From a virus: DNA of 46,608 nucleotides. The notes under the pieces are model-generated. The model saw nothing but the letters and a program-made list of their open reading frames with translations, was not told the origin of the DNA and searched no databases. Made by a program: the position numbers and the translations under genes. Position 1 is the stretch's first letter, and every line of letters starts with the position of its first letter. Below, piece by piece: positions 3,673-42,192 of the stretch. The stretch is taken from the IMG/VR virus record IMGVR_UViG_3300007960_000042, positions 1 through 46,608 of that record. One strand, 5' to 3'.

Positions 3673-5115
3673 ATGCCTTTAGTAGATTTAGCAAACCCAT
3701 TAAATAGTCAAGGTCTCCAACAATTGGCAGGTCCTTTTGGTGCTTATTTAGGCCCTGGTGCTCAGTTTCCAAATTCATATGACTTTGCAAAAAGATTTGT
3801 TGCTACTCCTACAGTAGCACAGGGTGGTGCTAATGGTGTTACAAGTTTAGATGACCCTACTTATTTAGGGTTTCAAATAAGATTTGATATTTCAAGCCCC
3901 CTTTTTAATGGTGCTATTATTGGAGAACCTGAACCTCCTGCTAAACCACCATTTAGTGAAACTCTTGCAGGTGGTGGTGCATTAGGAGATATTCTTGCTT
4001 CATTAGATGAAGGGATCGGTGAACCTAGTAATGCAAACAGTATACCCGCTGGGGAATCTGCTGTTGGCTATTTAGAAACAATCGGCGAGTCAACTAGGGC
4101 AACTTATCTTAGGGCTTTTATACAAGGTTTACGCGAAATAGAATTAAGTAGGCCTTATTATTGGCAAACTATTGAAGGTTTATCAGAAGCATGGAATTCA
4201 ACTGTAAATATGGTAGATCCTTATAGCGGTACCAAAGAAGGGGAAGGTATTACGATAGGATGTCTTGAGGCAATTGATTTAAAAATGACCGCTCTGTTCA
4301 ATTTATACAAAATGGCTACATATGATGTAAAGTATAAGAGAACGGTTTTACCTATTAATCTAATGTATTTTGATGTTTACATAGATGTGTTTGAAATTAG
4401 AAAATTTAAAACGGTAAGAAATTGGCTAAATGCTCTTAATCTTAGTGATAGTTCACCAGACACATTAAACTATGTAAATGAAAATACATCAAAGATCACT
4501 TTTAGATTTTCTGAATGTAAATGGGATCCTACTTCCACAGGAACAATATTTTCTAATGTTACAAATGCAGGCGGTAATGCAATGGCAGTAAGTCAGATGA
4601 AATGGTCTTATAGCCGAGTTGAAATGGAAGCCCAATTTTCTGGTTATAACTCTGCATTAAAAGATCAGGCTAAATTACAGACCGGAGATGGAAAGTTTAA
4701 GTTTGATCAAGCTGCTAAAAACTTTGGTAAGGATTTATTAAACAATGCAGCTAAAGGCGCAATCAATAAATTAGAAAGAGGAGCATCTTCACTATTCCAA
4801 AGTTTTGCTTTAGGTAATGTATTTGGTCTAAGAAATCAAATATTTGGTGCTATACAAAATCCTCAGGCTTTACTATCTGCTGCGCAAGGTGCTTTAGTAC
4901 AGGAAGAACAAATTGGTGGACAGTTTGCAAAATCAAATAGAAGGTTAGGTGATAATGTCTTAGGTGATGGTCAGCAACCACCTACATCATTACCCACGGA
5001 TAATGTAAATGCCGGGCAGATTCCAACTGACCCTAATCCTCTATCTTCTAGTAATATATTCGGCCCTGGTCCATCAGGCCCTGGTCCACTTGAATCTAAT
5101 AATGTATTTGGCTAA
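3673..5115 (+). CDS. Virion protein with probable tail-tube-like domain (baseplate/tube junction candidate)
   Basis: 480 residues. The central region (about 195-330) contains TALFNLYKMATYDVKYKR, VLPINLMYFDVYIDVFEIR and, after a linker, KITFRFSECKWDP and SQMKWSYSRVEMEAQFSGY. This alternation of strands with an LPxNLMxFDxxIxVxEIR hairpin is what I would expect of a tail-tube fold (gp19/gp48/gp54 type). The N-terminus and the last 100 residues (Gly/Pro/Asn-rich, ending ESNNVFG) look flexible. It lies between hub and spike genes and its stop overlaps the spike ATG by one base. A tube-initiator or hub-extension role is inferred; the fold call rests on pattern only. Confidence 0.45.
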   Translation: MPLVDLANPLNSQGLQQLAGPFGAYLGPGAQFPNSYDFAKRFVATPTVAQGGANGVTSLDDPTYLGFQIRFDISSPLFNGAIIGEPEPPAKPPFSETLAGGGALGDILASLDEGIGEPSNANSIPAGESAVGYLETIGESTRATYLRAFIQGLREIELSRPYYWQTIEGLSEAWNSTVNMVDPYSGTKEGEGITIGCLEAIDLKMTALFNLYKMATYDVKYKRTVLPINLMYFDVYIDVFEIRKFKTVRNWLNALNLSDSSPDTLNYVNENTSKITFRFSECKWDPTSTGTIFSNVTNAGGNAMAVSQMKWSYSRVEMEAQFSGYNSALKDQAKLQTGDGKFKFDQAAKNFGKDLLNNAAKGAINKLERGASSLFQSFALGNVFGLRNQIFGAIQNPQALLSAAQGALVQEEQIGGQFAKSNRRLGDNVLGDGQQPPTSLPTDNVNAGQIPTDPNPLSSSNIFGPGPSGPGPLESNNVFG

Positions 5116-6002
5116 TGGGAAAATTAACGACTAGGGAATTAGCTTCAGATAATCTAAAAGGTACTCAATGGATTGGAATAGTTGAAGATAATAATGATGA
5201 TCTATTTGAAGGGCGTTGCCGTATAAGAGTTTATGGCAAGATGGATCAACGAGTTGATCCTGGTGATCCAGAAAGCGATTATGTAATGCCGATAGAATCA
5301 TTACCATGGGCTCGTCCTTCTGTTGCATCTTCTGGTGGAAGTAATAGTGGAAGTGGAACGTTTTCAGTACCTAAGTTAGGATCGGTTCTTAGGGTTACAT
5401 TTGATAATGGAAATTACTATAACCCGGTTTATCATGAAAGTCTTTATCCTTCAGATGAAGTAAAGGCAGAGATTGAAGCTTCATATCAAAATTCTCATGT
5501 ACTTATTTATGATACTGCATTTGGATTAACCGGTGGTGGTAATGAAGAAGTATCCAATGAAAGAGAAGGTGAAAGTATTAAGGTTTTCTTTACTGAAGAA
5601 AAGGGGCTAATGATGGATTACACTACAACAGAAGGTCCTACAACGGTCAATATTAAACCTGATAATTCTGTTGAGATTATAAATGCTAATGGAGATTCCA
5701 TTGTTATGCTTAATGATGGTAACATTACATTTACTCATAGCGCTAAGTTTATAATTAATAGCACAGATAATACCGAGATTAACTGCAAGGATGCAATTAT
5801 AAATTGTGAAAACACTATCATTAATCATTCATCATCAATTGAGCTAGGACAAGGGGCTAGTGAAAAGATTATTTTAGGAGATACTTTTAAAGCATTCTTT
5901 AATAGTCATACTCACATTGCTAATCTTGGGGCTCCTACATCACCGCCGATTGTACCTATGACTGCTGCGCAGCTTAGTAAGAAGAACGTTAAATCTCTAT
6001 AA
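5115..6002 (+). CDS. 5: Baseplate central spike, gp5-like OB-fold plus beta-helix, without lysozyme domain
   Basis: 295 residues. Residues about 15-120 match the gp5 N-terminal OB-fold: WIGIVEDNNDDLFEGRCRIR, the LPWARP motif, then PKLGSVLRVTFDNGNYYNPV. Residues about 185-265 are short alternating strands rich in Ile/Asn/Asp (IINSTDNTEINCKDAIINCE), typical of the triple-stranded beta-helix needle. The end FFNSHTHIANLGAPTSPP carries an HxH pair of the kind that binds iron at the tip of P2 gpV and phi92 gp138 spikes. T4 gp5 (575 residues) has a lysozyme domain between OB and helix; it is absent here, so the spike is purely a puncturing device. Start ATG overlaps the previous stop (TAATG). Confidence 0.82.
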   Translation: MGKLTTRELASDNLKGTQWIGIVEDNNDDLFEGRCRIRVYGKMDQRVDPGDPESDYVMPIESLPWARPSVASSGGSNSGSGTFSVPKLGSVLRVTFDNGNYYNPVYHESLYPSDEVKAEIEASYQNSHVLIYDTAFGLTGGGNEEVSNEREGESIKVFFTEEKGLMMDYTTTEGPTTVNIKPDNSVEIINANGDSIVMLNDGNITFTHSAKFIINSTDNTEINCKDAIINCENTIINHSSSIELGQGASEKIILGDTFKAFFNSHTHIANLGAPTSPPIVPMTAAQLSKKNVKSL

Positions 6003-6010
6003 ATATATAA
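5998..6010 (+). promoter_or_regulatory. Late-promoter-like box TATAAATATATAA
   Basis: An exact TATAAATA (T4 late-promoter consensus) at 5998-6005, running into ATATATAA at 6003-6010 and embedding the stop codon of the spike gene. The downstream ATG is at 6029, 18 bases beyond the box. Similar ATATATAA boxes recur before seven other genes here. Promoter function is inferred from recurrence and placement. Confidence 0.45.
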
Positions 6011-6028
6011 ATTACTAAAAGATAAGTT

Positions 6029-6313
6029 ATGCCATTAGTACAACCTACATTAAATCTTGCATTGGAACAGGCATTTGATAAAGCAATGTTTGTTTTTGCG
6101 GAAACTATCGCAAACAGTCCACAAGGTACTGATGTTGCTGATGATGCAAGAAAGGCAGCTGCTAAAGTATTTGCTAACATTGCAACGCCTGCAATTGATC
6201 TGTATATTAAATCCGCCACTATTACAATACCTCCTGGTCAGCTTGTAGTTGCTCCACCCCCAGCAGGAACAGGGTCCACAACGACACCATCTTTACCTGC
6301 AATTATTGTTTAA
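6029..6313 (+). CDS. Small structural protein of the spike/baseplate operon
   Basis: 94 residues. The N-terminal two thirds are helical and Ala-rich (LALEQAFDKAMFVFAETIAN, DDARKAAAKVFANIATPAID), followed by IKSATITIPPGQLVVAPPPA and a Thr/Ser/Pro-rich tail ending PSLPAIIV. Small proteins ending in a similar ITVPPGQ/GTGTT pattern are often seen next to spike genes in large myophages, where they may cap or escort the spike. I know no assigned function. It follows the spike gene by 26 bases behind a TATAAATATATAA box and precedes an 85-base gap with another promoter-like box, so it ends the first baseplate block. Confidence 0.5.
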   Translation: MPLVQPTLNLALEQAFDKAMFVFAETIANSPQGTDVADDARKAAAKVFANIATPAIDLYIKSATITIPPGQLVVAPPPAGTGSTTTPSLPAIIV

Positions 6314-6358
6314 ACAAAATAGATGTTACTAGGTATAACTATTGTAAATTGACAAGAG

Positions 6359-6369
6359 TAATATATAAT
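6359..6369 (+). promoter_or_regulatory. Promoter-like box TAATATATAAT before the S1 gene
   Basis: TAATATATAAT, 29 bases before the ATG at 6399, in the 85-base gap between two gene blocks. It belongs to the recurrent ATATATAA set. The TTGACA at 6349-6354 is only about 9 bases from TATAAT, too close for a housekeeping sigma-70 pair, so the phage-specific reading is preferred. Confidence 0.4.
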
Positions 6370-6398
6370 CTATATTTCAACCCTTTAATAACAAAATA

Positions 6399-7553
6399 AT
6401 GATTGAGCAAGAAATCACAATTCAACTAAGTGATGATCCGTTTGACACAAAAACAATTAAAGTCCAAGTTCCTAAAGGAACAAAGATTCTATCAACTGAA
6501 CCTTATGTAGCCGATGTGCTATCAATGTATGGCTTATCCGAAAGGGTAGAAGAACAATTGCATTTATGCGAAGACCAGCAAAGATATACAACACAAGGGG
6601 AAATCGTATCGTTTTCTAAAGATAAAGAAGGCAATAAAATTATTGCTCTCATTGATCTAGGCACAAAGTATACTGCTACATGCCATCTTCTTAAAGAACC
6701 TAAATCTATTGTTGACCAATTGGAAATTGGAATGATTGTAGATGTTAAAGTTAAGCCAGGTAAAAATGGAAATGTATTGGCTTCAATATCAGATGCAATT
6801 GATGAAGTTAAGTCTAAGGAAATCATGGATGCTATTGGTAATAAGTCAATAGGATTCACTGGTAAAATTGTGGAACTTATTCACGGTGGTTATTGGGTTG
6901 AGGTTGGAGGAATCCGATGCTTTATGCCAGGATCGTTGGCTGGGCTTAATAAGCTATATGACTTTGAATCTATTGTCGGTCAAGAATTAATTATTATGCC
7001 AGTATCATACTCTAATGAAAAAGAAACTATTATTGTTTCCCATAGAGAATACCTAAGAACTTTAATCCCATCAACAGTTGAATCTGCTAGGGAAAATATT
7101 AAAGATCATATTACAGGTTTTGTTACCGGTACTACTAAGTTTGGTATCTTTGCAGAATTTAATCAATGCTTAACTGGTCTTATTCCTCTTTCTGATTTAG
7201 ACGAAGAAACTTTAGAAAGATTTAATAAAAGAGAAATTAAACCAGGTGATGATATTTCATTTTGGATAAAAGAAATCATTTCTGATAAAAAGATCATATT
7301 ATCACAAACAGGGCCTAAAGAAAATATCTGGGATGATGCCGGTGAAAAATATAAACCTATGATGGTAACCTCAGGTAAGGTAACAAAGGTAACTAAGTAT
7401 GGAGCCTTTGTTGAACTGGAAAAAGGCATTAGTGGATTAATTCATAAATCTAAATTAAAGGATACTGAATTAACTAAAGGTGATACCGTTAGTATAAAAA
7501 TTCAAAGCATTAATCCTAGTGATAGGAAAATAACTATGAATCTTTCTGAGTAA
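6399..7553 (+). CDS. S1-domain RNA-binding protein (ribosomal protein S1-like, four repeats)
   Basis: 384 residues with four S1/OB-type repeats at about 66-132, 150-215, 235-303 and 322-383. The last two are clearest: ITGFVTGTTKFGIFAEF, CLTGLIPLSDL and ending DKKIILSQ; then SGKVTKVTKYGAFVELEKG, SGLIHKSKL and ending DRKITMNLSE. In bacteria S1 brings mRNA to the 30S subunit and matters most for leaders without Shine-Dalgarno. The first 60 residues form a separate alpha/beta-looking domain. No nuclease or polymerase domain is attached, which argues against PNPase, RNase E or RNase R. The next gene overlaps its stop (TAATG). A role in phage translation or RNA handling is inferred. Confidence 0.75.
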   Translation: MIEQEITIQLSDDPFDTKTIKVQVPKGTKILSTEPYVADVLSMYGLSERVEEQLHLCEDQQRYTTQGEIVSFSKDKEGNKIIALIDLGTKYTATCHLLKEPKSIVDQLEIGMIVDVKVKPGKNGNVLASISDAIDEVKSKEIMDAIGNKSIGFTGKIVELIHGGYWVEVGGIRCFMPGSLAGLNKLYDFESIVGQELIIMPVSYSNEKETIIVSHREYLRTLIPSTVESARENIKDHITGFVTGTTKFGIFAEFNQCLTGLIPLSDLDEETLERFNKREIKPGDDISFWIKEIISDKKIILSQTGPKENIWDDAGEKYKPMMVTSGKVTKVTKYGAFVELEKGISGLIHKSKLKDTELTKGDTVSIKIQSINPSDRKITMNLSE

Positions 7554-8128
7554 TGAAAGGAAAAGAAGATTTGATTATTGACAATGATCAGATAGTTCTT
7601 TCTGATCCACCTAAAGAAGATCGACGTGGTCAAGTTGTAATGATGAGGTGGGAAGATGAGGTAATGAGGCTTTCTTCCAAGTGGGTTACATACAACCAAG
7701 GTGATATTCTTGAGTTTGGTTTTGGTATGGGATTATCTGCTGGTCATATACAATCATATAGACCTAAATCTCATACTATTATAGAAATTCATTCTGATAT
7801 AGCAGCTAAAGCTAAAGAATGGGCCAAGGATAAACCTGGCGTTAAAATCATACACGCAGATTGGTGGGATGTTAAAGATGAATTAGGAATGTATGATGGA
7901 ATATTTTTTGATACTTTTAATGATCCTAATGAAATGAATTGGTATGATGTTGCTATAACAAAAGCAAAACCAAATTGTCATATATCATTTTATAATAATA
8001 GACCATTTAGAAGTAATTCATACGGCATAAAGGTTGTTGACTATATTCATAAAAGAGTATGTCCAACTAAGAATGATTATTTTCACTATGCAGATTACTA
8101 TGTACCTTTAGTTATTCATAATCCATAA
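7553..8128 (+). CDS. SAM-dependent methyltransferase, GAMT/RMT2-like (arginine/guanidino type)
   Basis: 191 residues, one class I Rossmann methyltransferase domain. Motif I is ILEFGFGMGLSAGHIQ (52-67), followed by the acidic end of strand 2 (IIEIHSD, E78), HADWW (101-105) and YDGIFFDTFND (114-124) at motif IV. The LEFGFGMG...HIQ plus GIFFDTF combination is typical of guanidinoacetate methyltransferase and the fungal arginine methyltransferase RMT2, so a guanidino or arginine acceptor is the best guess; the real substrate is unknown. Its ATG overlaps the S1 stop, so the two are probably co-translated. An N-terminal extension of about 45 residues (MMRWEDEVMRLSSKWV) resembles the GAMT lid helix. 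Confidence 0.7.
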   Translation: MKGKEDLIIDNDQIVLSDPPKEDRRGQVVMMRWEDEVMRLSSKWVTYNQGDILEFGFGMGLSAGHIQSYRPKSHTIIEIHSDIAAKAKEWAKDKPGVKIIHADWWDVKDELGMYDGIFFDTFNDPNEMNWYDVAITKAKPNCHISFYNNRPFRSNSYGIKVVDYIHKRVCPTKNDYFHYADYYVPLVIHNP

Positions 8129-8140
8129 ATGCTAGGGTTG

Positions 8141-8150
8141 GAATATATAA
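8141..8150 (+). promoter_or_regulatory. Promoter-like box GAATATATAA before the amidoligase gene
   Basis: GAATATATAA with its end 16 bases before the ATG at 8167, inside the 38-base gap. The same GAATATATA string recurs at 10341 and 42509 in the same relation to a start codon. Confidence 0.45.
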
Positions 8151-8166
8151 ACAAATTAGATAAAAG

Positions 8167-9465
8167 ATGTATTCCAACGAACAGCTTAATGCCATATATT
8201 CATCTAAGGTAGGTTTTGAATTTGAGTTCTTTGCTAATGAAGATATTCAGGAGGCAAAAACAAGCATAGCAAATACCCTTAATAAGAAAATTAGAATAGA
8301 GGACAAAGCACATAGTGACTTTTCTCCAACAGAGGAGGTGTTTAAAATGGAGCCTGATAATTCCGGAGGAACTGGAATGATTGAATTAGTAACAGGACCT
8401 CTTCCTTTTGTTGAATCTAAACTAATCATGGCAAAGATGTTAAAGTGGATCCAAGAAAATGGTTCTACTAATGAGAGATGTTCTATTCACGTAAATCTTG
8501 CATTTGATGGAAAGAAGTTAGGGCCAATTACTAATATGACCAAATTGGATATAGGTAAGTTTGTTCTTAACTTTGATGAAGATAAAGTTTATGAAGCGTT
8601 CCCTAATAGGAAAGATTCTGTTTATGCAAAGTCAATTAAATTTATTGTACCTCTTAGTGGAATGACACAAAATTCTCCAGGTAAAAATGTGTGGCATAAT
8701 TACATGTTTGTTAACGAAAAGTATTATGGCATTAATTTTACTAAGATACCTAAAGGGTATATTGAATTTCGTTACTTAGGTGGAAAGGATTATGAAAAGA
8801 AGTATAGCACTATTCTTTCTATGACAGAGCATTTTCTAATTTCATTATATGAAACATTGGTTAACCCTCAATACACCGATGAGGATATGAAAAAGTTAGA
8901 TGCCGTTCTTGAAAAACATCAAGATGTTATTCAATCATATAAAACATATCAAAAGTTTAAAGAAAAGTTTCCAAACATTCAATTAATGATTGATTTAAAA
9001 ACAGCAGATCAAATAGTTGAAATGTATTATCCTAGAATCAGGGAAAGAGTATTTGACCTTCTAACTAAAGCTGATTTACAGGAAGGCCTAATTAATTATG
9101 ACAGTGATACTGGAAGAATACAGATTAAAGATGCTGAGTTAAAAAGATGTTTTGAAATTCATGATGTTGATATTGTTGACTGTGTAGTTCAAGGAAACAT
9201 AAAAGGTTGCGATATCTTTGGATCTGAAATAATCAACTCTTCAATTTTTGAATCAAACTTATTTGGTTCAACTATATGTAAGGACTGTAAGGTAGAGGAA
9301 TCATATGTTAGTAAAAATGTGATTTGTGAAAACTCTTACGTGTTTGGTAAGAAAGGAGTATTCAGTGGTGAAATGGAAGGTGGAATATTTAGACAAGGTA
9401 GAGCAACTAAATTTGCTAGATTTAGCGATGATACTGAAGTCATTGAAATAGAAAAAATTAAGTAA
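8167..9465 (+). CDS. Amidoligase-family enzyme with C-terminal beta-helix-like repeats
   Basis: 432 residues. The N-terminal 210 residues fit the phage/bacterial amidoligase family (glutamine-synthetase-like COOH-NH2 ligases): VGFEFEFFA (15-23) with two Glu, MIELVTGPLPF (71-81), SIHVNLAF (106-113) and GYIEFRYLGG (197-206). These are the Mg-ATP and acid-binding positions expected of the family, which forms amide or peptide bonds on small molecules or proteins. After a helical linker, residues about 335-425 show short repeating turns (DIVDCVVQGNIKGCDIFGS, SSIFESNLFGSTICKDC, KEESYVSKNVIC-like units) suggestive of a beta-helix, an unusual fusion. It sits between structural operons, following the methyltransferase by 38 bases. 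Substrate unknown; modification of a virion or host protein is a guess. Confidence 0.65.
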   Translation: MYSNEQLNAIYSSKVGFEFEFFANEDIQEAKTSIANTLNKKIRIEDKAHSDFSPTEEVFKMEPDNSGGTGMIELVTGPLPFVESKLIMAKMLKWIQENGSTNERCSIHVNLAFDGKKLGPITNMTKLDIGKFVLNFDEDKVYEAFPNRKDSVYAKSIKFIVPLSGMTQNSPGKNVWHNYMFVNEKYYGINFTKIPKGYIEFRYLGGKDYEKKYSTILSMTEHFLISLYETLVNPQYTDEDMKKLDAVLEKHQDVIQSYKTYQKFKEKFPNIQLMIDLKTADQIVEMYYPRIRERVFDLLTKADLQEGLINYDSDTGRIQIKDAELKRCFEIHDVDIVDCVVQGNIKGCDIFGSEIINSSIFESNLFGSTICKDCKVEESYVSKNVICENSYVFGKKGVFSGEMEGGIFRQGRATKFARFSDDTEVIEIEKIK

Positions 9466-9467
9466 GT

Positions 9468-10310
9468 ATGCCATACATAGATTGTAATGATCCGGATGCT
9501 AAAGATTGTTTGGATGAATTAATCAAACAAATAAACGATGAGTTAACTATTACTTGTCAGGTTCCTTTTACAGTACCCAAAAAAGAAATTGCAAGAATAG
9601 TAAGTAAAGCAAAAAACTATTTTTATAAGATTTATGAAGATAGCGTAGAGGAGATGTATATTGCTTTACCTAGAGCTGCTTGGTATAAACCGGACTTTAG
9701 ACAGGGTATAGACAAGGATAGTGACACCTTATCAAAAACTAATCTTGATAATCCTAGAGGTGTAGTACAAATGCCATTTGGTGTTTGGTCGGTTAATAAT
9801 GTATGGGAACTAAATGGCTTTAGTGGTGAAGATGGTGGATTTGGATCAAGATCTTTTTCTGCAGGTGATCCGGATTTTTCAATTGATAAGTTTATCTATT
9901 CTGATACATACGGTGCTGGAATAGGAGCAGAAAATCTAATGAATTATGTAATTAACTCAAAGTTCATTGATAATGCAAGACAAGTATTACAGGCCCAGAT
10001 TTCATATTCATACAATAGATTAACTAGAAAATTTAGATTCCAAGGTGAATTACCAAAACATGCATGTGTTTTTCAAATATACCGTACAATCCCTGATTGT
10101 GCTCTTTTTGAGGATGAAGCCTTTTATCGCTATTGCGTAGCGATGGCAAAAATTCAATTGGCTAGAATCTTAGGAACATTCCAATTTAACCTACCAGGTA
10201 ACATTACAATTAATTATGATATGATATCGTCAGAAGGTAGAGATGAGTTGGATAGGCTAATTGAAGAAATAAAAGGTGATGAAGGTGTTGACTATTTCTT
10301 CACTGGGTAA
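9468..10310 (+). CDS. Neck-like head-tail connector protein (gp13/gp14 type)
   Basis: 280 residues. The C-terminal 80 residues (CALFEDEAFYRYCVAMAKIQ, then LARILGTFQFNLPGNITINY and a final GVDYFFTG) match the pattern I know from cyanophage T4-type neck proteins: a helix with ALxxIQ/W, a LPGG-like turn followed by T(I/L)N, and a short hydrophobic tail ending TG. The N-terminus is helical (ELIKQINDELTI...IARIVSKAKNYFYKIYED). In T4 the neck proteins close the filled head and receive the tail. It begins 2 bases after the amidoligase stop. The identification rests on the C-terminal pattern only, so a different connector or baseplate role is possible. Confidence 0.5.
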   Translation: MPYIDCNDPDAKDCLDELIKQINDELTITCQVPFTVPKKEIARIVSKAKNYFYKIYEDSVEEMYIALPRAAWYKPDFRQGIDKDSDTLSKTNLDNPRGVVQMPFGVWSVNNVWELNGFSGEDGGFGSRSFSAGDPDFSIDKFIYSDTYGAGIGAENLMNYVINSKFIDNARQVLQAQISYSYNRLTRKFRFQGELPKHACVFQIYRTIPDCALFEDEAFYRYCVAMAKIQLARILGTFQFNLPGNITINYDMISSEGRDELDRLIEEIKGDEGVDYFFTG

Positions 10311-10340
10311 TTATAATCTAAGACAGGTACTTTTTTAAGA

Positions 10341-10353
10341 GAATATATATTAA
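10341..10353 (+). promoter_or_regulatory. Promoter-like box GAATATATATTAA before gene 25
   Basis: GAATATATATTAA within the 56-base gap before the gp25 ATG at 10367, with 13 bases between box and start. Same family as the boxes at 8141 and 42509. Confidence 0.4.
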
Positions 10354-10366
10354 AAGATTATTCTCT

Positions 10367-10729
10367 ATGATCGGCGACATTTATAGCAGAGATGCAGAAT
10401 CGGTTAAGTATAACCAAAAGGTTATAGAAGTTAGTGATGAACTATCTCAGCTTATACTGAAAATAGAAAATACTCTCTTCTCTAGAAAAGGTGATGTTTT
10501 AGGAGCTCCTAATTTTGGGTGTAATCTTGATGACCTTATCTTTTCTTTAGTTTTTAATGAAGCTGTAATTAAGCAGAGAATTGTATCTCAGATACAAATG
10601 TATTGTTTACCTGATGATACCAAATTCTCTATTGATGTACAGGTTAAATTTTTTAGTACATTGGAAAGAAATGGAGCATTGATTGACATCTATATTAATG
10701 AAAACAGAGTCATAGGTGCATTATTTTAA
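10367..10729 (+). CDS. 25: Baseplate wedge protein gp25
   Basis: 120 residues against 132 in T4. The core IENTLFSRKGDVLGAPNFGC followed by NLDDLIF (about 36-62) is the signature of the GPW/gp25 family, where a Thr/Ser-x-x-Gly turn leads to P-x-FG-x-x-L-x-x-L(I/L)F. The C-terminal half has the expected helix-strand layout, ending in RNGALIDIYINENRVIGAL. gp25 is the wedge subunit closest to the sheath and primes sheath polymerisation. It stands directly before gene 6, a gp25-gp6 pairing common in contractile-tail systems. Confidence 0.85.
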   Translation: MIGDIYSRDAESVKYNQKVIEVSDELSQLILKIENTLFSRKGDVLGAPNFGCNLDDLIFSLVFNEAVIKQRIVSQIQMYCLPDDTKFSIDVQVKFFSTLERNGALIDIYINENRVIGALF

Positions 10730-10745
10730 TAAAATATAAATGTGA

Positions 10746-12602
10746 ATGTCATTCTTTAGCAAAACAAGAATAAAAGCAACTGAACTGTTCTTTGATGCCT
10801 TTCAGTATTTACAAAGAACTTATGACCAGGCTCAAGAGGTGTTTACTCCAGCATCTCCATTTGGTCAATTACTTACTGTTGTTGCAAACTTAGGTGAAAT
10901 GATATTCTTCTATATTGAAGCAGTTGCAACAGAACTTAATATATCAAGAGCTAGGAACATTGAATCAATATATGGATTATCAAGATTAACTGGCCATGAT
11001 CCTACTAGAGGTATATCGGCTAGAGGTATAATAGGATTAAGACTTAATCAAAATGCGGCTGCATTAGTTAATGGAGACTTTGTACAAATACTAAATAAAG
11101 CTCAGATAGAATGTGGTAACAATGGACAAAAATACTTTATATCATTTAATAGTGATTACATTAGATTAGAAAAAACTGATAGGCAGTTTGTAAATGTTGA
11201 AATGATCCAAGGCGAAATTGAAGATCAAACCTTTACGGGAAGTGGTTTTAATTTACAAAGCTATAATCTAACCACTAAAGATTCAACGGATCAGTACTTA
11301 GTTGAAGTGCATGTAGATGGTCAATTATGGAAAAAGGTTGATTCTTTATATGATATGGGGCCAAATGAAAAATGTGTCATGGTTAAAACTAGTGTTAATG
11401 GAGGATTAAGTATTTTCTTTGGTAACACTCAGTTTGGTAGACCTCCTGCATTAGGTTCACTTATTAGGGTAACATATGTTAAAACTAGAGGTGTTGCTGG
11501 AAACATAGGTGGAAAAAATCTTGACATTAAGTTTGTGGATGAAGGGACCGATTACTTAGGAGAAGGTGTAGATCTTAATGAAGTGTTATCTCTAAACATT
11601 GTTAGAAATCCAGGATTTGGATCTGATAGCGAAGATCCTTCTTTTACTAGACTTATTGCTCCTTACCAAAGTAATTCATTTGTGTTAGCTAATCCTAATA
11701 ATTACATTTACTATTTAAGTAAGTATGATACTTTTTCTTTTATTGATGCATATAATACAAAAGACGATCAGTACATAGATGATGATAATATCATTTACCT
11801 TTTCTTAATTCCTGATATTAAGAAAAAGATAACCAGTGATAAGGATTACTTTAATGTCGCAGAAGAAGAGTTTACCTTAACTAAGGATGAGAAGGCTCAG
11901 GTTTACGAAATCTTAAATGCTAGTGGTAGACAGGTTGTAACTGCAGAGGTTAGAATTAATGATCCTATAATTAAGAGATATGCATTAAACGTTATCATAA
12001 GATGGATTGAAGGCTACGATAAAGATAATATTTCTACTGAGATTAGAAAGCAGTTAAATGATTACTTCTTAAATGTAAATAGAAGAGATAGAATACCTAG
12101 ATCTGATATCATTTCAATTATTGAAGATGTTGAAGGCGTTGACTCTGTTAATGTTTTCTTTATATCAGAAGAAAATGAAACTGCAATAAGAAACGGATAT
12201 TATTATGTACCTGTATATGGTACTGATCCTGCAACCGACCAAAAGACTCTTATTGAAAATAAAAAGATTGTTTTGGCGCCAGGCGAGGATCCTCAATTAG
12301 GATTAGACGAGTTTGGCGATGTGATAATTGGACCTGAAGATATTGCAATCATAAGAGGTGGGTGGGAAGATAGAAACAAAACATATTTTGAAGCAACTCC
12401 TGTAAAAAATGGTATAGGTTCACTTAACATATTCTTTAAGTCAGTGATAAACAATAATCTTTACAACAAAACTCAGCAAGATAGGTTTAATGAATTAAGA
12501 AGAAATAGAGGAACAACTATTGCGACTGGTAGAAATTCAAGATCAACTAATACAGGCAGACTGTCTGGTCAATCAACACAAAACACAATTAACAATTTAT
12601 AA
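10746..12602 (+). CDS. 6: Baseplate wedge protein gp6 (baseplate J-like)
   Basis: 618 residues against 660 in T4. The N-terminal part (ATELFFDAFQYLQRTYDQAQ, then FGQLLTVVANLGEMIFFYIE, then LSRLTGHDPTRGISARG) is typical of large-phage gp6. The J-like core ends in SIFFGNTQFGRPPALGS and VTYVKTRGVAGNIGG (about 222-258), the recognised signature of the baseplate J/gp6 family. The C-terminal part has LAPGEDPQLGLDEFGDVIIG and IRGGWEDRNKTYFEATPVKN, then a basic, Asn/Ser/Thr-rich tail that is probably disordered. gp6 forms the ring of wedge dimers with gp7 and gp53. The next gene's ATG overlaps its stop. Confidence 0.85.
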   Translation: MSFFSKTRIKATELFFDAFQYLQRTYDQAQEVFTPASPFGQLLTVVANLGEMIFFYIEAVATELNISRARNIESIYGLSRLTGHDPTRGISARGIIGLRLNQNAAALVNGDFVQILNKAQIECGNNGQKYFISFNSDYIRLEKTDRQFVNVEMIQGEIEDQTFTGSGFNLQSYNLTTKDSTDQYLVEVHVDGQLWKKVDSLYDMGPNEKCVMVKTSVNGGLSIFFGNTQFGRPPALGSLIRVTYVKTRGVAGNIGGKNLDIKFVDEGTDYLGEGVDLNEVLSLNIVRNPGFGSDSEDPSFTRLIAPYQSNSFVLANPNNYIYYLSKYDTFSFIDAYNTKDDQYIDDDNIIYLFLIPDIKKKITSDKDYFNVAEEEFTLTKDEKAQVYEILNASGRQVVTAEVRINDPIIKRYALNVIIRWIEGYDKDNISTEIRKQLNDYFLNVNRRDRIPRSDIISIIEDVEGVDSVNVFFISEENETAIRNGYYYVPVYGTDPATDQKTLIENKKIVLAPGEDPQLGLDEFGDVIIGPEDIAIIRGGWEDRNKTYFEATPVKNGIGSLNIFFKSVINNNLYNKTQQDRFNELRRNRGTTIATGRNSRSTNTGRLSGQSTQNTINNL

Positions 12603-22875: not shown

Positions 22876-22919
22876 TTTTCACTGCCTTCTTGGTGAATAA
22901 ATAAAAAAAGTGAAAATTA
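22873..22919 (+). promoter_or_regulatory. Perfect 11-bp inverted repeat abutting a start codon
   Basis: TAATTTTCACT (22873-22883) and AGTGAAAATTA (22909-22919) are perfect inverted copies. The left arm starts with the upstream stop codon and the right arm ends one base before the ATG at 22920. An alternative shorter hairpin TTCAC/GTGAA (22878-22882 with 22893-22897) shares the left arm, so the two folds exclude each other. There is no U-run, so this is not a terminator. A translational switch is possible but unproven. Confidence 0.4.
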
Positions 22920-29945: not shown

Positions 29946-30188
29946 ATGAATACAGAAGATAGAAAAGAACTTAAGAACTTTGTAGATCGTTACAAAGAAA
30001 TTGAAACCTCAATTGACCTAATGCAGAAAAGCATTGAAAGTCTTGCAGAGAAAAGAGATGGTTTATTTGATGAATTGGAAACACTTAAAGTAAAGGAAGA
30101 GCAATTCATGAAAAGAATTGTTGAAAAATATGGAGCTAGCGAAGTTACACCACATAAGCTATTACAACTCTATGAAGAAGGCATATGA
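29946..30188 (+). CDS. Small coiled-coil protein upstream of the spanin-like gene
   Basis: 80 residues, almost wholly helical with heptad spacing (FVDRYKEIETSIDLMQKSIE, SLAEKRDGLFDELETLKVKE), then a basic/hydrophobic ending (TPHKLLQLYEEG). Its stop overlaps the next ATG in an ATGA, so the two products are probably made together. AAGGA abuts the ATG directly, too close for a normal Shine-Dalgarno. There is no membrane segment, so it is not a holin. Function unknown; partner or regulator of the membrane protein that follows is a guess from the overlap. Confidence 0.5.
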   Translation: MNTEDRKELKNFVDRYKEIETSIDLMQKSIESLAEKRDGLFDELETLKVKEEQFMKRIVEKYGASEVTPHKLLQLYEEGI

Positions 30189-30955
30189 TAGTTATTAAAA
30201 ACATATTAGCGTTTTTAACGGATCCCAAAAATACTAGAATGCTACTATTAGGTGGCATTGTTGTATTGGTGATGCTACTTCTTAGACAGTGCCAAGCTAC
30301 CCAAGAAGCACAAGGTGAGGCCGATAGAATAAGTAATAATTGGAAAGCTTCTCTTGATGAAATTGAAAACTATATTAACGAAAAGGGTAATACTGAGGCT
30401 GAAATACTAGCTCTTACTTTAACGTTAGATGAAGTTAAAGATGAACTTGATTTTGAGAAATCAAAGCCACCTGTTACTGTTATTAAGTATAGAACCGAAA
30501 TTGTTGAAAAAATTGTAGAAGTTCCTGTAGAGGTTAAAGATACGATCATAGGAAACTTTAATTCTGCTCTTACTATTAATCAAGAAAATAGTTGGTCAAA
30601 TAGTTCGAGAAAAATTGGAGTACAAGTTCCATATAATGCAATAGGTGATTCTTTAGTTTTTGGAAATGCAACTATTGACCTGAGACAGAATATTTGGTTA
30701 ACTGCATCAATTTTAAGAGATAAGAAAACTAAAGAAGTATTTGTAAATCTTGAAACAGATTATCCTGGTACTACATTTAATAATGCACAGGGTATTATGA
30801 TTGACCCTAAGAGTTCAGGTTTTAGAGATTTGCAATTTCAAAATAGAAAGCCTTTTGGTATAGGTGTTCAATTAGGATTTGGTCTAAGCGGTAATACAGT
30901 AGGACCTTATGTAGGTATTGGAATAAACTATACACCAAAGTTTTTACAATGGTAA
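30185..30955 (+). CDS. Membrane-anchored protein with coiled coil and beta-hairpin C-terminus; spanin candidate
   Basis: 256 residues. A short N-terminal tail precedes a transmembrane helix at about 19-34 (MLLLGGIVVLVMLLLR). A coiled coil (about 40-85) and a Val/Pro/Glu stalk (EIVEKIVEVPVEVKDTII) lead to a beta-rich domain. The last 30 residues (FGIGVQLGFGLSGNTVGPYV, then GIGINYTPKFLQW) form two strands ending in an aromatic residue, like the last strands of an outer-membrane barrel. I associate this ending with Bacteroidetes phages. The topology, inner-membrane anchor, periplasmic coil, outer-membrane-type end, suits envelope spanning, but no lysis neighbours are visible, so a different envelope or tail role remains possible. 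Confidence 0.45.
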   Translation: MIVIKNILAFLTDPKNTRMLLLGGIVVLVMLLLRQCQATQEAQGEADRISNNWKASLDEIENYINEKGNTEAEILALTLTLDEVKDELDFEKSKPPVTVIKYRTEIVEKIVEVPVEVKDTIIGNFNSALTINQENSWSNSSRKIGVQVPYNAIGDSLVFGNATIDLRQNIWLTASILRDKKTKEVFVNLETDYPGTTFNNAQGIMIDPKSSGFRDLQFQNRKPFGIGVQLGFGLSGNTVGPYVGIGINYTPKFLQW

Positions 30956-39615: not shown

Positions 39616-40908
39616 ATGAAGCCTATCAAAAAGTTTTCAACGATTTCAACTGGTGCTACAAAAAGTGCCGACTCTATTTTGGAATCTGCAAGCCTTAGCC
39701 CAGAAGCATTAGCTGAACTCGTTCAGAAATTGGGTTACAATAACATTGAAGAAGTTAAAAAAGAAAAAGCTCTTCTTTCAAAATTAGAAGCCCTTCTTAA
39801 GGAATTTGCCCCTAAAGATGATGTTAGCGAAGATGACGCTGAAGATATCGAAGATGAGGTATTAAAAATGGGAGAACCTAAATCATTGGAAGATGAGGAA
39901 GGTGCAAAAGAAGAAGATAAAGAAGCTGGAGCTCCCGGTGAAGTTGCTGAAGAAGATGAGGAAGCTTCTGAAATTGAAAAAGAAGTCGAAGACGACGAAG
40001 ACGACGAAGACGACGATGAGTCTGATAGAATAGAAAAGGACACTGTAGAAATGGGTGAGCCTGAAGAAAAGGAAGAAGAAGAAGGTGAAGAGGTTGTTAC
40101 CGATGATCAACCTATTACTGATGAAGTACCTGAAGAAGGCGACGATGAAGAATCTGGCGAAGAGATTGAAAAAGAAGAAGAATCAGAAGAAAAGCCTGTT
40201 GCCAAAAGAAGGATCATGACCTTTGAAGATTTCTGTACCGAAAAGGAAGTTACGGTTAATAAGAATGTTAGTTACCGTGATGATGAAGAAGAAGAAGATT
40301 ATGCTGTACCTGTAGCTGATTCTGAAGAAGTTGAAGTTGAAGCTGATGAAGAAATTGAGGAAGAGGTAAAAACAACTTCATCTATTAAATCTTTCTCTAC
40401 ATTTGTATCTGAAGCATATTTATCTGAAGAAGCTGATAATGGTCCTGAGTTAACTGAAGAAACTCCTGATGAAAATGGTATTGCTATTAAGATTGCAAAA
40501 GGTGACGGTCCTGAAACTGCCGCTGGTATTGCAGGTGATATTATGAATATGGGTAAGGTAAAGAAGGAAGATGAAAAGGACGGAGAAGCATTGGTTACTA
40601 AAGATCAACCAATTACTAAAGTTCCTGAAACTTCAAAGGACGAACCTAATGTTCAAGGTACTGTTGTTGTAAAAGAGGAAGAAGAAGTTGAAGCCGAAGA
40701 GGAAGAAACTGTTGAAGAAGCTAAAGTATCAGAAAAAGAAATTAAGTCCGATGCTGAATTTGAAGAATATGCAACCGAAATTCTGAAAAATGCACATGGC
40801 GACAAATTTGATGAAGCTAAAGCAAAAGAAGTTATTGACGGTTTAAAATCTAAATATAGCGGAGATTATGGCGCTATGGTTGGGGCATTACAATCTTCAA
40901 TGGGATAA
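39616..40908 (+). CDS. Highly acidic repeat protein with internal targeting-like motifs (head core/scaffold candidate)
   Basis: 430 residues, mostly Glu/Asp with Lys. A VVTDDQPIT block (160-168) is repeated as LVTKDQPIT (326-334), each preceded by an (N/E)MG...E-rich segment. Two internal motifs resemble capsid-targeting sequences: IMTFEDFCTEKE (about 200-211) and IKSFSTFVSEAYLSEE (about 257-272); the start (MKPIKKFSTIS) is a weaker version. [LI]xE sites are frequent. Acidic, Lys-containing helical proteins form the T4 prohead core (gp67, gp68) and are degraded or packaged. This is my inference here; a DNA-mimic or general acidic accessory protein is another option. A 9-bp tandem repeat lies at 39988. 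Confidence 0.45.
   Translation: MKPIKKFSTISTGATKSADSILESASLSPEALAELVQKLGYNNIEEVKKEKALLSKLEALLKEFAPKDDVSEDDAEDIEDEVLKMGEPKSLEDEEGAKEEDKEAGAPGEVAEEDEEASEIEKEVEDDEDDEDDDESDRIEKDTVEMGEPEEKEEEEGEEVVTDDQPITDEVPEEGDDEESGEEIEKEEESEEKPVAKRRIMTFEDFCTEKEVTVNKNVSYRDDEEEEDYAVPVADSEEVEVEADEEIEEEVKTTSSIKSFSTFVSEAYLSEEADNGPELTEETPDENGIAIKIAKGDGPETAAGIAGDIMNMGKVKKEDEKDGEALVTKDQPITKVPETSKDEPNVQGTVVVKEEEEVEAEEEETVEEAKVSEKEIKSDAEFEEYATEILKNAHGDKFDEAKAKEVIDGLKSKYSGDYGAMVGALQSSMG
39988..40014 (+). repeat. Three copies of GAAGACGAC (Glu-Asp-Asp)
   Basis: Perfect 9-bp tandem repeat in frame in the acidic protein gene, using GAC codons where the surroundings mostly use GAT, a sign of recent local duplication. Confidence 0.85.
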
Positions 40909-40919
40909 TAAATTTATTA
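40906..40919 (+). repeat. 14-bp perfect palindrome at a gene junction
   Basis: TAATAAATTTATTA includes the stop codon of the acidic gene and ends one base before the ATG at 40921. It lacks a loop, so a protein-binding site is more plausible than a hairpin; chance is possible in AT-rich sequence. Confidence 0.4.
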
Positions 40920-40920
40920 C

Positions 40921-42192
40921 ATGAAATACGTAAAGTTATTTGAGCAATGGCTGGCAGATAAAAGCCAGCCATTTCTTTTTGAAGGTGGCGCTGCAGGTCA
41001 TATGAGCCACCCATACGATGATAAGGGATTAACCTTTGGGGATTTTAAAAGTATCATTGATGCAGGTCTTCGTGGTGAACTAAACTTTGAAGAGGATCCT
41101 ATTGAAAAGACCGATGGGCAAAACTTATTTGTTACTATTAAAGATGGTAAAGTTATGTTTGCTAGAAACACTGGTGATACAAAGGATCCGATGAGCCTTG
41201 ACCAGTTCGTGTCAAAATTTGAAGCCCATGAAGTTCCTATGGTAAGGGATACTTTTGTTTTTGCTGCTAAGGATCTTGCTAGCCTTTTAGTTAAATTACC
41301 TGCAGCGAAACAAGAAGAAATCTTTGGTAATGGTAAAAACTTCATGAACATGGAGCTTATCTATTCTAAAAATCCTAATGTTATTAATTATGATACTGAT
41401 GTTATCCAATTTCATAACATTACACAAACAGATGGTGATGGTAATATTTTAGGAACTGACAGCAGACCTGCTAAAGAGATACCACAAATCTTAGCCACAG
41501 TAAAAGCTAACATTGGTAAAACTTTTAAGATCATTCCACCTAGAGTACTTCAATTAAGACAAGATCTTGATTTTAGTGCTAATAAGAAAAGGTTTGAAGA
41601 TAAGGTTATTGCTTTACAAAAACGTTACGGATTAAATGATGGAGATGAGGTTGCTAGATATCATGAAATGTGGTGGAGAGAATTAATTGATGCAGACTTT
41701 CCTAATCTATCACAAGATGTTAAAGAAGGTCTTTTAAGAAGATGGGCATATGATGATAAGAAATCATTAAACATGAGATCTCTTGAAAAGCAAATCGGTA
41801 AAGATGAAGCGGCATTAGTTAAGAAGTATGATAAGGAAGATGTTAAGAAAAAGTATAAAGAAAACATTCAACCGTTTGAAGACTTATTCTTAGAGCTCGG
41901 TGCAACAATTATTAAGAATGCAAGTAATTTTGTTGCAGCTAATCCATCTGATGAAGCACAGAGACTAAGAGCATACCTTGATGCAGAAACCACTAAGATT
42001 AGAAAGGGTGGCGGTGTTGATCAAATTAAAAGAGTAGAAGATCAATTGGCTAAACTCGATAGAATTGGCGGCCTTGATTCAATTTATCCAAGTGAAGGTA
42101 TAGTTTTTAGATATAATGGAAAGTTATATAAACTAACTGGCGCATTTGCTCCACTTAATCAATTATTAGGAATTATAAAATACGGCAGATAA
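40921..42192 (+). CDS. Ligase-fold covalent nucleotidyltransferase (RNA/DNA ligase-like)
   Basis: 423 residues. Motif I is EKTDGQN with the presumed AMP-accepting Lys63 and DG at 65-66. A motif III-like MNMELIY has E145; motif IV is EGIVFR (392-397) and motif V YKLTG (403-407). This is the covalent nucleotidyltransferase set of RNA/DNA ligases and capping enzymes, but motifs III and IV are separated by a long helical insert (about 215-385). The N-terminus (MKYVKLFEQWLADKSQPFLF, then EGGAAGHMSHPYDD) contains an LFE|GG [LI]xE-type site. No OB domain follows. Substrate unknown: RNA repair or sealing is the conservative guess. Stop overlaps the next ATG. Confidence 0.65.
   Translation: MKYVKLFEQWLADKSQPFLFEGGAAGHMSHPYDDKGLTFGDFKSIIDAGLRGELNFEEDPIEKTDGQNLFVTIKDGKVMFARNTGDTKDPMSLDQFVSKFEAHEVPMVRDTFVFAAKDLASLLVKLPAAKQEEIFGNGKNFMNMELIYSKNPNVINYDTDVIQFHNITQTDGDGNILGTDSRPAKEIPQILATVKANIGKTFKIIPPRVLQLRQDLDFSANKKRFEDKVIALQKRYGLNDGDEVARYHEMWWRELIDADFPNLSQDVKEGLLRRWAYDDKKSLNMRSLEKQIGKDEAALVKKYDKEDVKKKYKENIQPFEDLFLELGATIIKNASNFVAANPSDEAQRLRAYLDAETTKIRKGGGVDQIKRVEDQLAKLDRIGGLDSIYPSEGIVFRYNGKLYKLTGAFAPLNQLLGIIKYGR

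Follow-up and report, generated by a model that had tools for sequence, protein, structure and literature searches.

The "window" considered here is IMG/VR record IMGVR_UViG_3300007960_000042, a viral fragment of 46,608 bases and so an incomplete genome, and the subject is a run of three plus-strand genes within it: an S1-like gene (6399-7553, 384 aa), a methyltransferase (MT) gene (7553-8128, 191 aa) and an amidoligase-like gene (8167-9465, 432 aa). An original prediction, made from the letters of the DNA, had taken these for a non-structural cassette set between a hub/spike block and a gp25 block, and had proposed that its enzymes act jointly. The open reading frames (ORFs) are real and lie where they were claimed to lie, the S1 and MT genes overlapping in TAATG at 7553. 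The description of the surroundings holds with one correction. On the 5' flank are a spike-like OB-domain protein (5115-6002; PHROG "baseplate hub subunit and tail lysozyme", E 6e-14) and g94, a 94-aa ORF between spike and S1 (6029-6313); on the 3' flank are gp25 (10367-10729) and gp6 (10746-12602), and a neck or head-tail adaptor gene (9468-10310) also stands between the amidoligase and gp25.

Which of these three genes belong together? A scan of IMG/VR yielded at least 553 relatives of the amidoligase, and the 80 best of these, each on a contig of its own, were read. S1 lies directly 5' of the amidoligase in every one of the 75 related contigs that reach that far, usually across a gap of 40-42 nt; the order S1-amidoligase-neck is found in all related contigs with enough sequence, and the fuller order spike-g94-S1-amidoligase-neck-gp25-gp6 is typical of nearly all of them. 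The pair is retained in more distant loci (amidoligase ~40-46%, S1 ~35-45% identity), the orthologues of the lineage reaching down to ~36% (S1) and ~40% (amidoligase) identity, and when all locus entries are taken, repeated contigs counted, it is present in 148 of the 148 with room upstream. Six huge-phage records were matched, all of which carry both genes (LR756501 and LR756503 give identical coordinates); in LR756500, a 462-kb huge phage whose S1 orthologue is 42% identical to that of the window, the two lie close together in the same block. The S1-amidoligase pair is an ancient, conserved two-gene core lying in the block of virion genes in a large T4-like lineage of phages.

The methyltransferase does not share in this constancy. 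The original prediction had made co-occurrence in related phages the test of the trio: S1 and amidoligase pass it throughout, and the MT is found, the window apart, in a single one of the 75 related contigs with the pair (3300033182_000943, 77% identical); among the huge-phage records only LR745206 has it, elsewhere in the genome. The spacer between S1 and amidoligase harbors other things besides: a 135-aa ORF in three contigs, a 58-aa ORF, a 218-aa ORF and, in LR756500, three minus-strand ORFs. Because the spacer takes such varied and unrelated inserts, the MT is best read as accessory cargo placed in it. (An assembly error was considered and rejected, since the second contig carries the same trio.) The composition of the MT gene (GC 0.32, GC3 0.19) does not differ clearly from that of its neighbors, so that base composition gives no sign of a recent origin. 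No promoter-like box belongs to the MT gene itself, which would depend on the S1 promoter for its transcription.

Some of the spacer ORFs merit a remark in their own right. The N-terminus of the 218-aa insert (L292:3271-3927) reads like that of a GIY-YIG homing endonuclease (IYKLIDP...YIGKT), a resemblance that has no Pfam support. The spacer ORFs at L039:7542-7949 (135 aa) and L001:10916-11920 (minus strand) start like MK..KYNEFLVNEA / MKYIKEYSEFVNES, and a 423-aa protein of the window (40921-42192) that is without a family match starts MKYVKLFEQWLADK; homologues of the latter (~40% identity) stand near a fibre-methyltransferase module in L131, L142, L162 and L167. Starts of the MK..KYNEFLVNEA type presumably recall the capsid-targeting start of T4 internal proteins. 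A Pfam search of the inserts, the fibre partners and window positions 39616-42192 returned nothing useful.

The cargo itself was predicted to be an enzyme like guanidinoacetate N-methyltransferase (GAMT), and both sequence and predicted fold agree: the match to GAMT has E=7e-11 for the single sequence and E 1.6e-21 by profile, and the model (pLDDT 90.8) fits GAMT 3orh_B with a TM-score of 0.83. The key residues are kept as well. E34 and D120, which align with E45 and D134 of rat GAMT, do not vary among 32 relatives; in GAMT it is D134 that accepts the proton (PMC12471008). Sequence, fold and both guanidino-site acids are thus alike in GAMT (1xcj, 3orh) and in the window protein, but the latter is shorter, phage-borne and lodged in a virion-gene neighborhood, and guanidinoacetate is unlikely to be its substrate.

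The company kept by the MT family is informative. A scan of IMG/VR yielded 480 relatives. Where a downstream neighbor is available (n=79), a single ~230-aa family follows directly 3' in 71, one family of long fibre-like proteins precedes in 63, and the next gene begins within 30 nt in 75; a Flavobacteriales contig has the same fibre-like/~230-aa arrangement. Neither amidoligase nor S1 is present in the loci of these relatives. (Examples of the repeated three-gene fibre module, with the GAMT-like MT between the long fibre-like protein and the conserved ~230-aa protein, which is without a Pfam match, are L125:1102-9281, L117:4480-9302 and L309:1-5251; its fibre-like protein has the conserved C-terminus IYFNPDNTWVEL.) The window MT falls in a separate clade, which has full support and whose other members adjoin what we take, on our own reading of the sequences, to be a capsid-type protein and a LamG-type protein, as well as others. 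Virion genes are, to judge from sequence, the common thread of these neighborhoods. In three Cellulophaga phages, which are not known to encode any methyltransferase, virion proteins have recently been reported to bear methylated lysine and arginine (PMC13288928); the MT family may be what writes marks of this kind.

The S1 protein has Pfam S1 domains (E=7e-25), and its residues 65-382 align with residues 24-346 of E. coli bS1 in the PDB (5e-32), which by the numbering we assume correspond to domains 1-4; relative to these it has an extra N-terminal stretch. Tandem S1 domains alignable to D1-D4 of bS1 are accordingly present, and the scores fall below the NCBIfam equivalog cut-offs (rpsA, 131 bits against 577; best model, 144 against 624): the phage protein is S1-like and, by the equivalog standard, no orthologue of cellular rpsA. 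It resembles the S1-like proteins of huge phages (Al-Shayeb et al. 2020, PMC7162821) both in its domains and in residing in a genome with few Shine-Dalgarno sites, which that paper reports to be rare in huge phages carrying S1. A Shine-Dalgarno 4-mer precedes only 2 of the 34 genes of the window, against 3.3 expected at random, which fits the reported correlation. A fixed S1-amidoligase pair in a baseplate block is, on the other hand, not described in the passages of PMC7162821 that were searched. The gripping of unstructured A/U-rich leaders by S1 would be a plausible reason for its location in a late block.

The amidoligase required more argument. The window protein matches Pfam Amidoligase_2 (PF12224) at E=4e-4 and 20.8 bits, just under the gathering cut-off of 22, and among 44 orthologues 17 reach E<=0.01; the cut-off is exceeded by the orthologues L303 (27.1 bits) and L293 (22.5 bits), and by the homologue of Agrobacterium phage Atu_ph07 (30.2 bits). 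The predicted structure (pLDDT 89.8) comprises a glutamine synthetase (GS)/gamma-glutamylcysteine synthetase (GCS) fold at residues ~1-300 and a C-terminal pentapeptide-like beta-helix at residues ~305-410. Foldseek matches the model to glutamine synthetase 8fbp (E 6.7e-06, probability 1.00) and, in BFVD, to many phage amidoligases, for example that of Atu_ph07 (4.4e-11). The TM-scores to GS are low (~0.3), as expected of remote relatives with an extra domain, and a PDB profile search with the amidoligase alignment matched only beta-solenoid proteins, on the C-terminal part. Since orthologues exceed the cut-off and the fold agrees, the predicted identity is accepted. The predicted key residues are also in place: G16, E18, E20, D64, S66, E73, H108, E200, F201 and R202 are invariant in 44 sequences, and the corresponding motifs (GxExE, EL, H, EFR) are largely common to the Atu_ph07 homologue (A0A2L0UZM1) at 22% identity. 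Fold and motifs are accordingly those of Amidoligase_2 phage amidoligases of the Atu_ph07 type, from which the window protein differs in its C-terminal beta-helix, its fixed place after S1 among virion genes and its sub-threshold Pfam score.

How might these genes be turned on? The original prediction saw promoter-like boxes before S1 and before the amidoligase, and both are borne out by conservation. A plus-strand ATATATAA box lies at 6361-6368 in the S1 leader (6314-6398) and at 8143-8150 in the amidoligase spacer (8129-8166); it recurs in 48 of 53 distinct S1 leaders and in 42 of 43 distinct amidoligase leaders. Boxes of the same type precede g94 (plus-strand leader 6003-6028; 29 of 35 distinct leaders) and gp25 (plus-strand leader 10311-10366; 44 of 44), in each of the four cases ~20-40 nt before the gene, and are absent from the spike, neck and gp6 leaders. 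Gene-strand copies of ATATATAA number 82 in 22 related loci, and 75 of them fall between genes, in no more than 2.1% of the sequence (the formal P of 5e-117 is inflated by the relatedness of the loci). For the bare motif RRATATATAA the window shows no clear enrichment (5 copies, with 2.4 expected), so that the case for the boxes rests on position and conservation. Other candidates fared less well: sigma-70-type promoters of the window number 27, against 30 expected in shuffles; TTGACA...TATATT before S1 (11/12) is taken as chance, being foreign to the consensus of the relatives' S1 leaders; and none of the Bacteroidota-type TAnnTTTG boxes is intergenic. Intrinsic terminators in the window number 3, against 2.4 expected, and none is at the S1-amidoligase junction. 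We infer that the ATATATAA boxes are late promoters.

Two of the four boxed leaders have a further property. In most relatives the amidoligase leader forms a stem of ~8-15 bp; its loop contains the box, and its 3' arm reaches the start codon or stops close to it (L092 has the start codon within the stem). In the window as well as in relatives the gp25 box is likewise inside a hairpin over the initiation region. The gp25 hairpin of the window, on the plus strand within 10311-10366, has the 8-bp stem AGAGAATA...TATTCTCT, ends at the start codon and folds with -7.2 kcal/mol (z -2.39). Averaged over 43 amidoligase leaders the folding z is -3.35, and over 44 gp25 leaders it is -2.23, against averages of -0.88 to 0.35 for the leaders of seven control genes; the boxed leaders of S1 (mean 0.13; window 0.33) and g94 (mean 0.72) have no hairpin. 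The arms of the amidoligase stem, which lie in the spacer and outside the S1 coding sequence, are wholly different between divergent phages: CCTGGTTTG/CAAATCAGG, CCAGGTTTAA/TTAAACCTGG, CTGCCTGAAT/ATTCAGGTAG and GCCCGGTTTAT/ATAAACCGGGC. Since divergent stems are offset in a MAFFT alignment, arms were swapped (L092, L097, L100, L105) in place of counting covariation by column: each leader with its own arms gives -12.0 to -21.7 kcal/mol, with swapped arms -0.9 to -8.5. Differing as they do and yet pairing each with its own partner, the arms co-vary. At gp25 the arms vary less, and swapping them is less informative. (A similar inverted repeat, TTTTCACT...AGTGAAAA around AATAAATAAA, is seen at 22876-22919 of the window, in the leader of a 1558-aa gene.)

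The precedent is T4 itself. In the leaders of e, soc, 49 and I-TevI the start is masked on transcripts that read through from upstream, and those from the late promoter are without the 5' arm; a conserved gene 25 stem is known there too (PMC3014915, PMC2988022). The box in the 5' half or loop, the 3' arm over the initiation region and the involvement of the gene 25 leader are features common to T4 and to the present lineage. The differences are that the box is ATATATAA and not TATAAATA, that Shine-Dalgarno sites are mostly missing, that an amidoligase is among the genes controlled, and that promoters and starts are putative.

A mechanism can be put together along these lines. In messages reading through from S1 the hairpin would form and make the amidoligase start inaccessible; messages starting at the box would be without the 5' arm and would be translated. 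The amidoligase, and gp25 with the same arrangement, would in this way be made mainly late. S1 would help late mRNAs devoid of Shine-Dalgarno sites to load on ribosomes, and a leader hairpin would block exactly the gripping of unstructured leaders that this presupposes. The amidoligase, with ATP, would attach an amino acid or a peptide to a carboxylate on some late protein, most likely one of the virion and in particular of the baseplate or neck, its beta-helix positioning the target; the GAMT-like MT would methylate a guanidino group, probably of an arginine in a virion protein, independently of S1 and amidoligase. Taken as a whole (a core of S1 and amidoligase, MT as cargo, late promoters with hairpin control, S1-aided translation and separate virion modifications), we give this explanation slightly better than even chances. 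A bolder version, in which a widespread lineage of huge phages has in the amidoligase an enzyme dedicated to virion maturation, placing an amide- or isopeptide-linked residue on a baseplate or neck protein, silenced by its hairpin until late and kept beside S1 because S1 drives late translation without Shine-Dalgarno sites, is an unlikely elaboration.

What of other explanations? That S1, MT and amidoligase form one cassette jointly modifying a ribosomal or virion protein, as originally proposed, has in its favor that the three genes are contiguous and co-directional, with MT overlapping S1, and that the trio recurs in a second contig; the MT is missing, however, from 74 of 75 related contigs with the pair, unrelated inserts use its slot, and its own relatives live elsewhere. 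The proposal is largely refuted by this phylogenetic distribution, and we regard it as very improbable. As to the joint target, a ribosomal protein finds no support here; a virion protein is possible, for each enzyme separately. The inverted repeat around the box might alternatively be a DNA operator for a regulator and not an RNA switch, as dyad symmetry around a promoter-like element could suggest. An operator would be expected to keep its sequence; the arms differ from gene to gene within a genome, and from phage to phage at a given locus, without loss of pairing, which disfavors the idea and makes it improbable.

The amidoligase invites two further alternatives. It might be a structural component of the virion, present by virtue of its beta-helix and with a vestigial enzyme domain: the helix and the location among baseplate genes would suit this, but catalytic-type motifs that stay invariant in 44 sequences down to ~40% identity, and are largely shared with Atu_ph07, argue for selection on activity, and we consider a purely structural role distinctly unlikely. 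Or it might act on the host envelope, on peptidoglycan or a surface peptide, for superinfection exclusion or lysis control, with the late block serving only for timing. Such a role on the cell wall has been proposed for other phage amidoligases, in work to which PMC10580990 refers, and the leader hairpin recalls that of T4 lysozyme, an enzyme of the envelope that is not made early (PMC3014915). Against it, no adjoining GATase or cyclotransferase partner was recognized, and the gene accompanies baseplate, neck or portal genes even where S1 is not nearby: in the huge-phage records in which it is apart from S1 it still tends to adjoin baseplate genes, near spike and baseplate genes in LR745206 and LR756502 and near neck and gp25 in LR756504, and in Atu_ph07 it is near the portal gene. 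We regard an envelope target as rather unlikely.

The explanation built on the S1-amidoligase core has its own difficulties, of which the cell-wall proposal just cited is one. In five huge-phage records (two with the same genome size and coordinates) a long distance separates S1 from the amidoligase, so that adjacency is dispensable for function. The window itself has lost the amidoligase hairpin (z -0.04), the MT occupying the place of the 5' flank, and the T4-like arrangement is accordingly missing from that leader; hairpins are weak in the closest relatives without MT, which suggests that the loss may precede MT insertion, and distant relatives are also without one. Control by hairpin is therefore not needed for the pair. 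The 135-aa and 218-aa spacer inserts have no Pfam match. Finally, the host of the lineage is probably a member of the Bacteroidota, an assignment based on two matches of the MT family to Bacteroidota metagenome-assembled genomes and on weak DUF matches; the latter belong to a 256-aa protein of the window (30185-30955) resembling DUF6808/DUF6549, families that we take to be associated with Bacteroidota and their phages.

The proposal of three enzymes at work together is thus replaced by a testable and better-supported picture: an old S1-amidoligase pair among tail genes, an insertion hot spot between its members, and, in phages distant from T4, a putative RNA switch of late genes in the T4 style. 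The GAMT-type family, in its virion operons, becomes a candidate writer of virion-protein arginine methylation, and the link of an amide-forming enzyme with baseplate genes would suggest that the virion is modified covalently.

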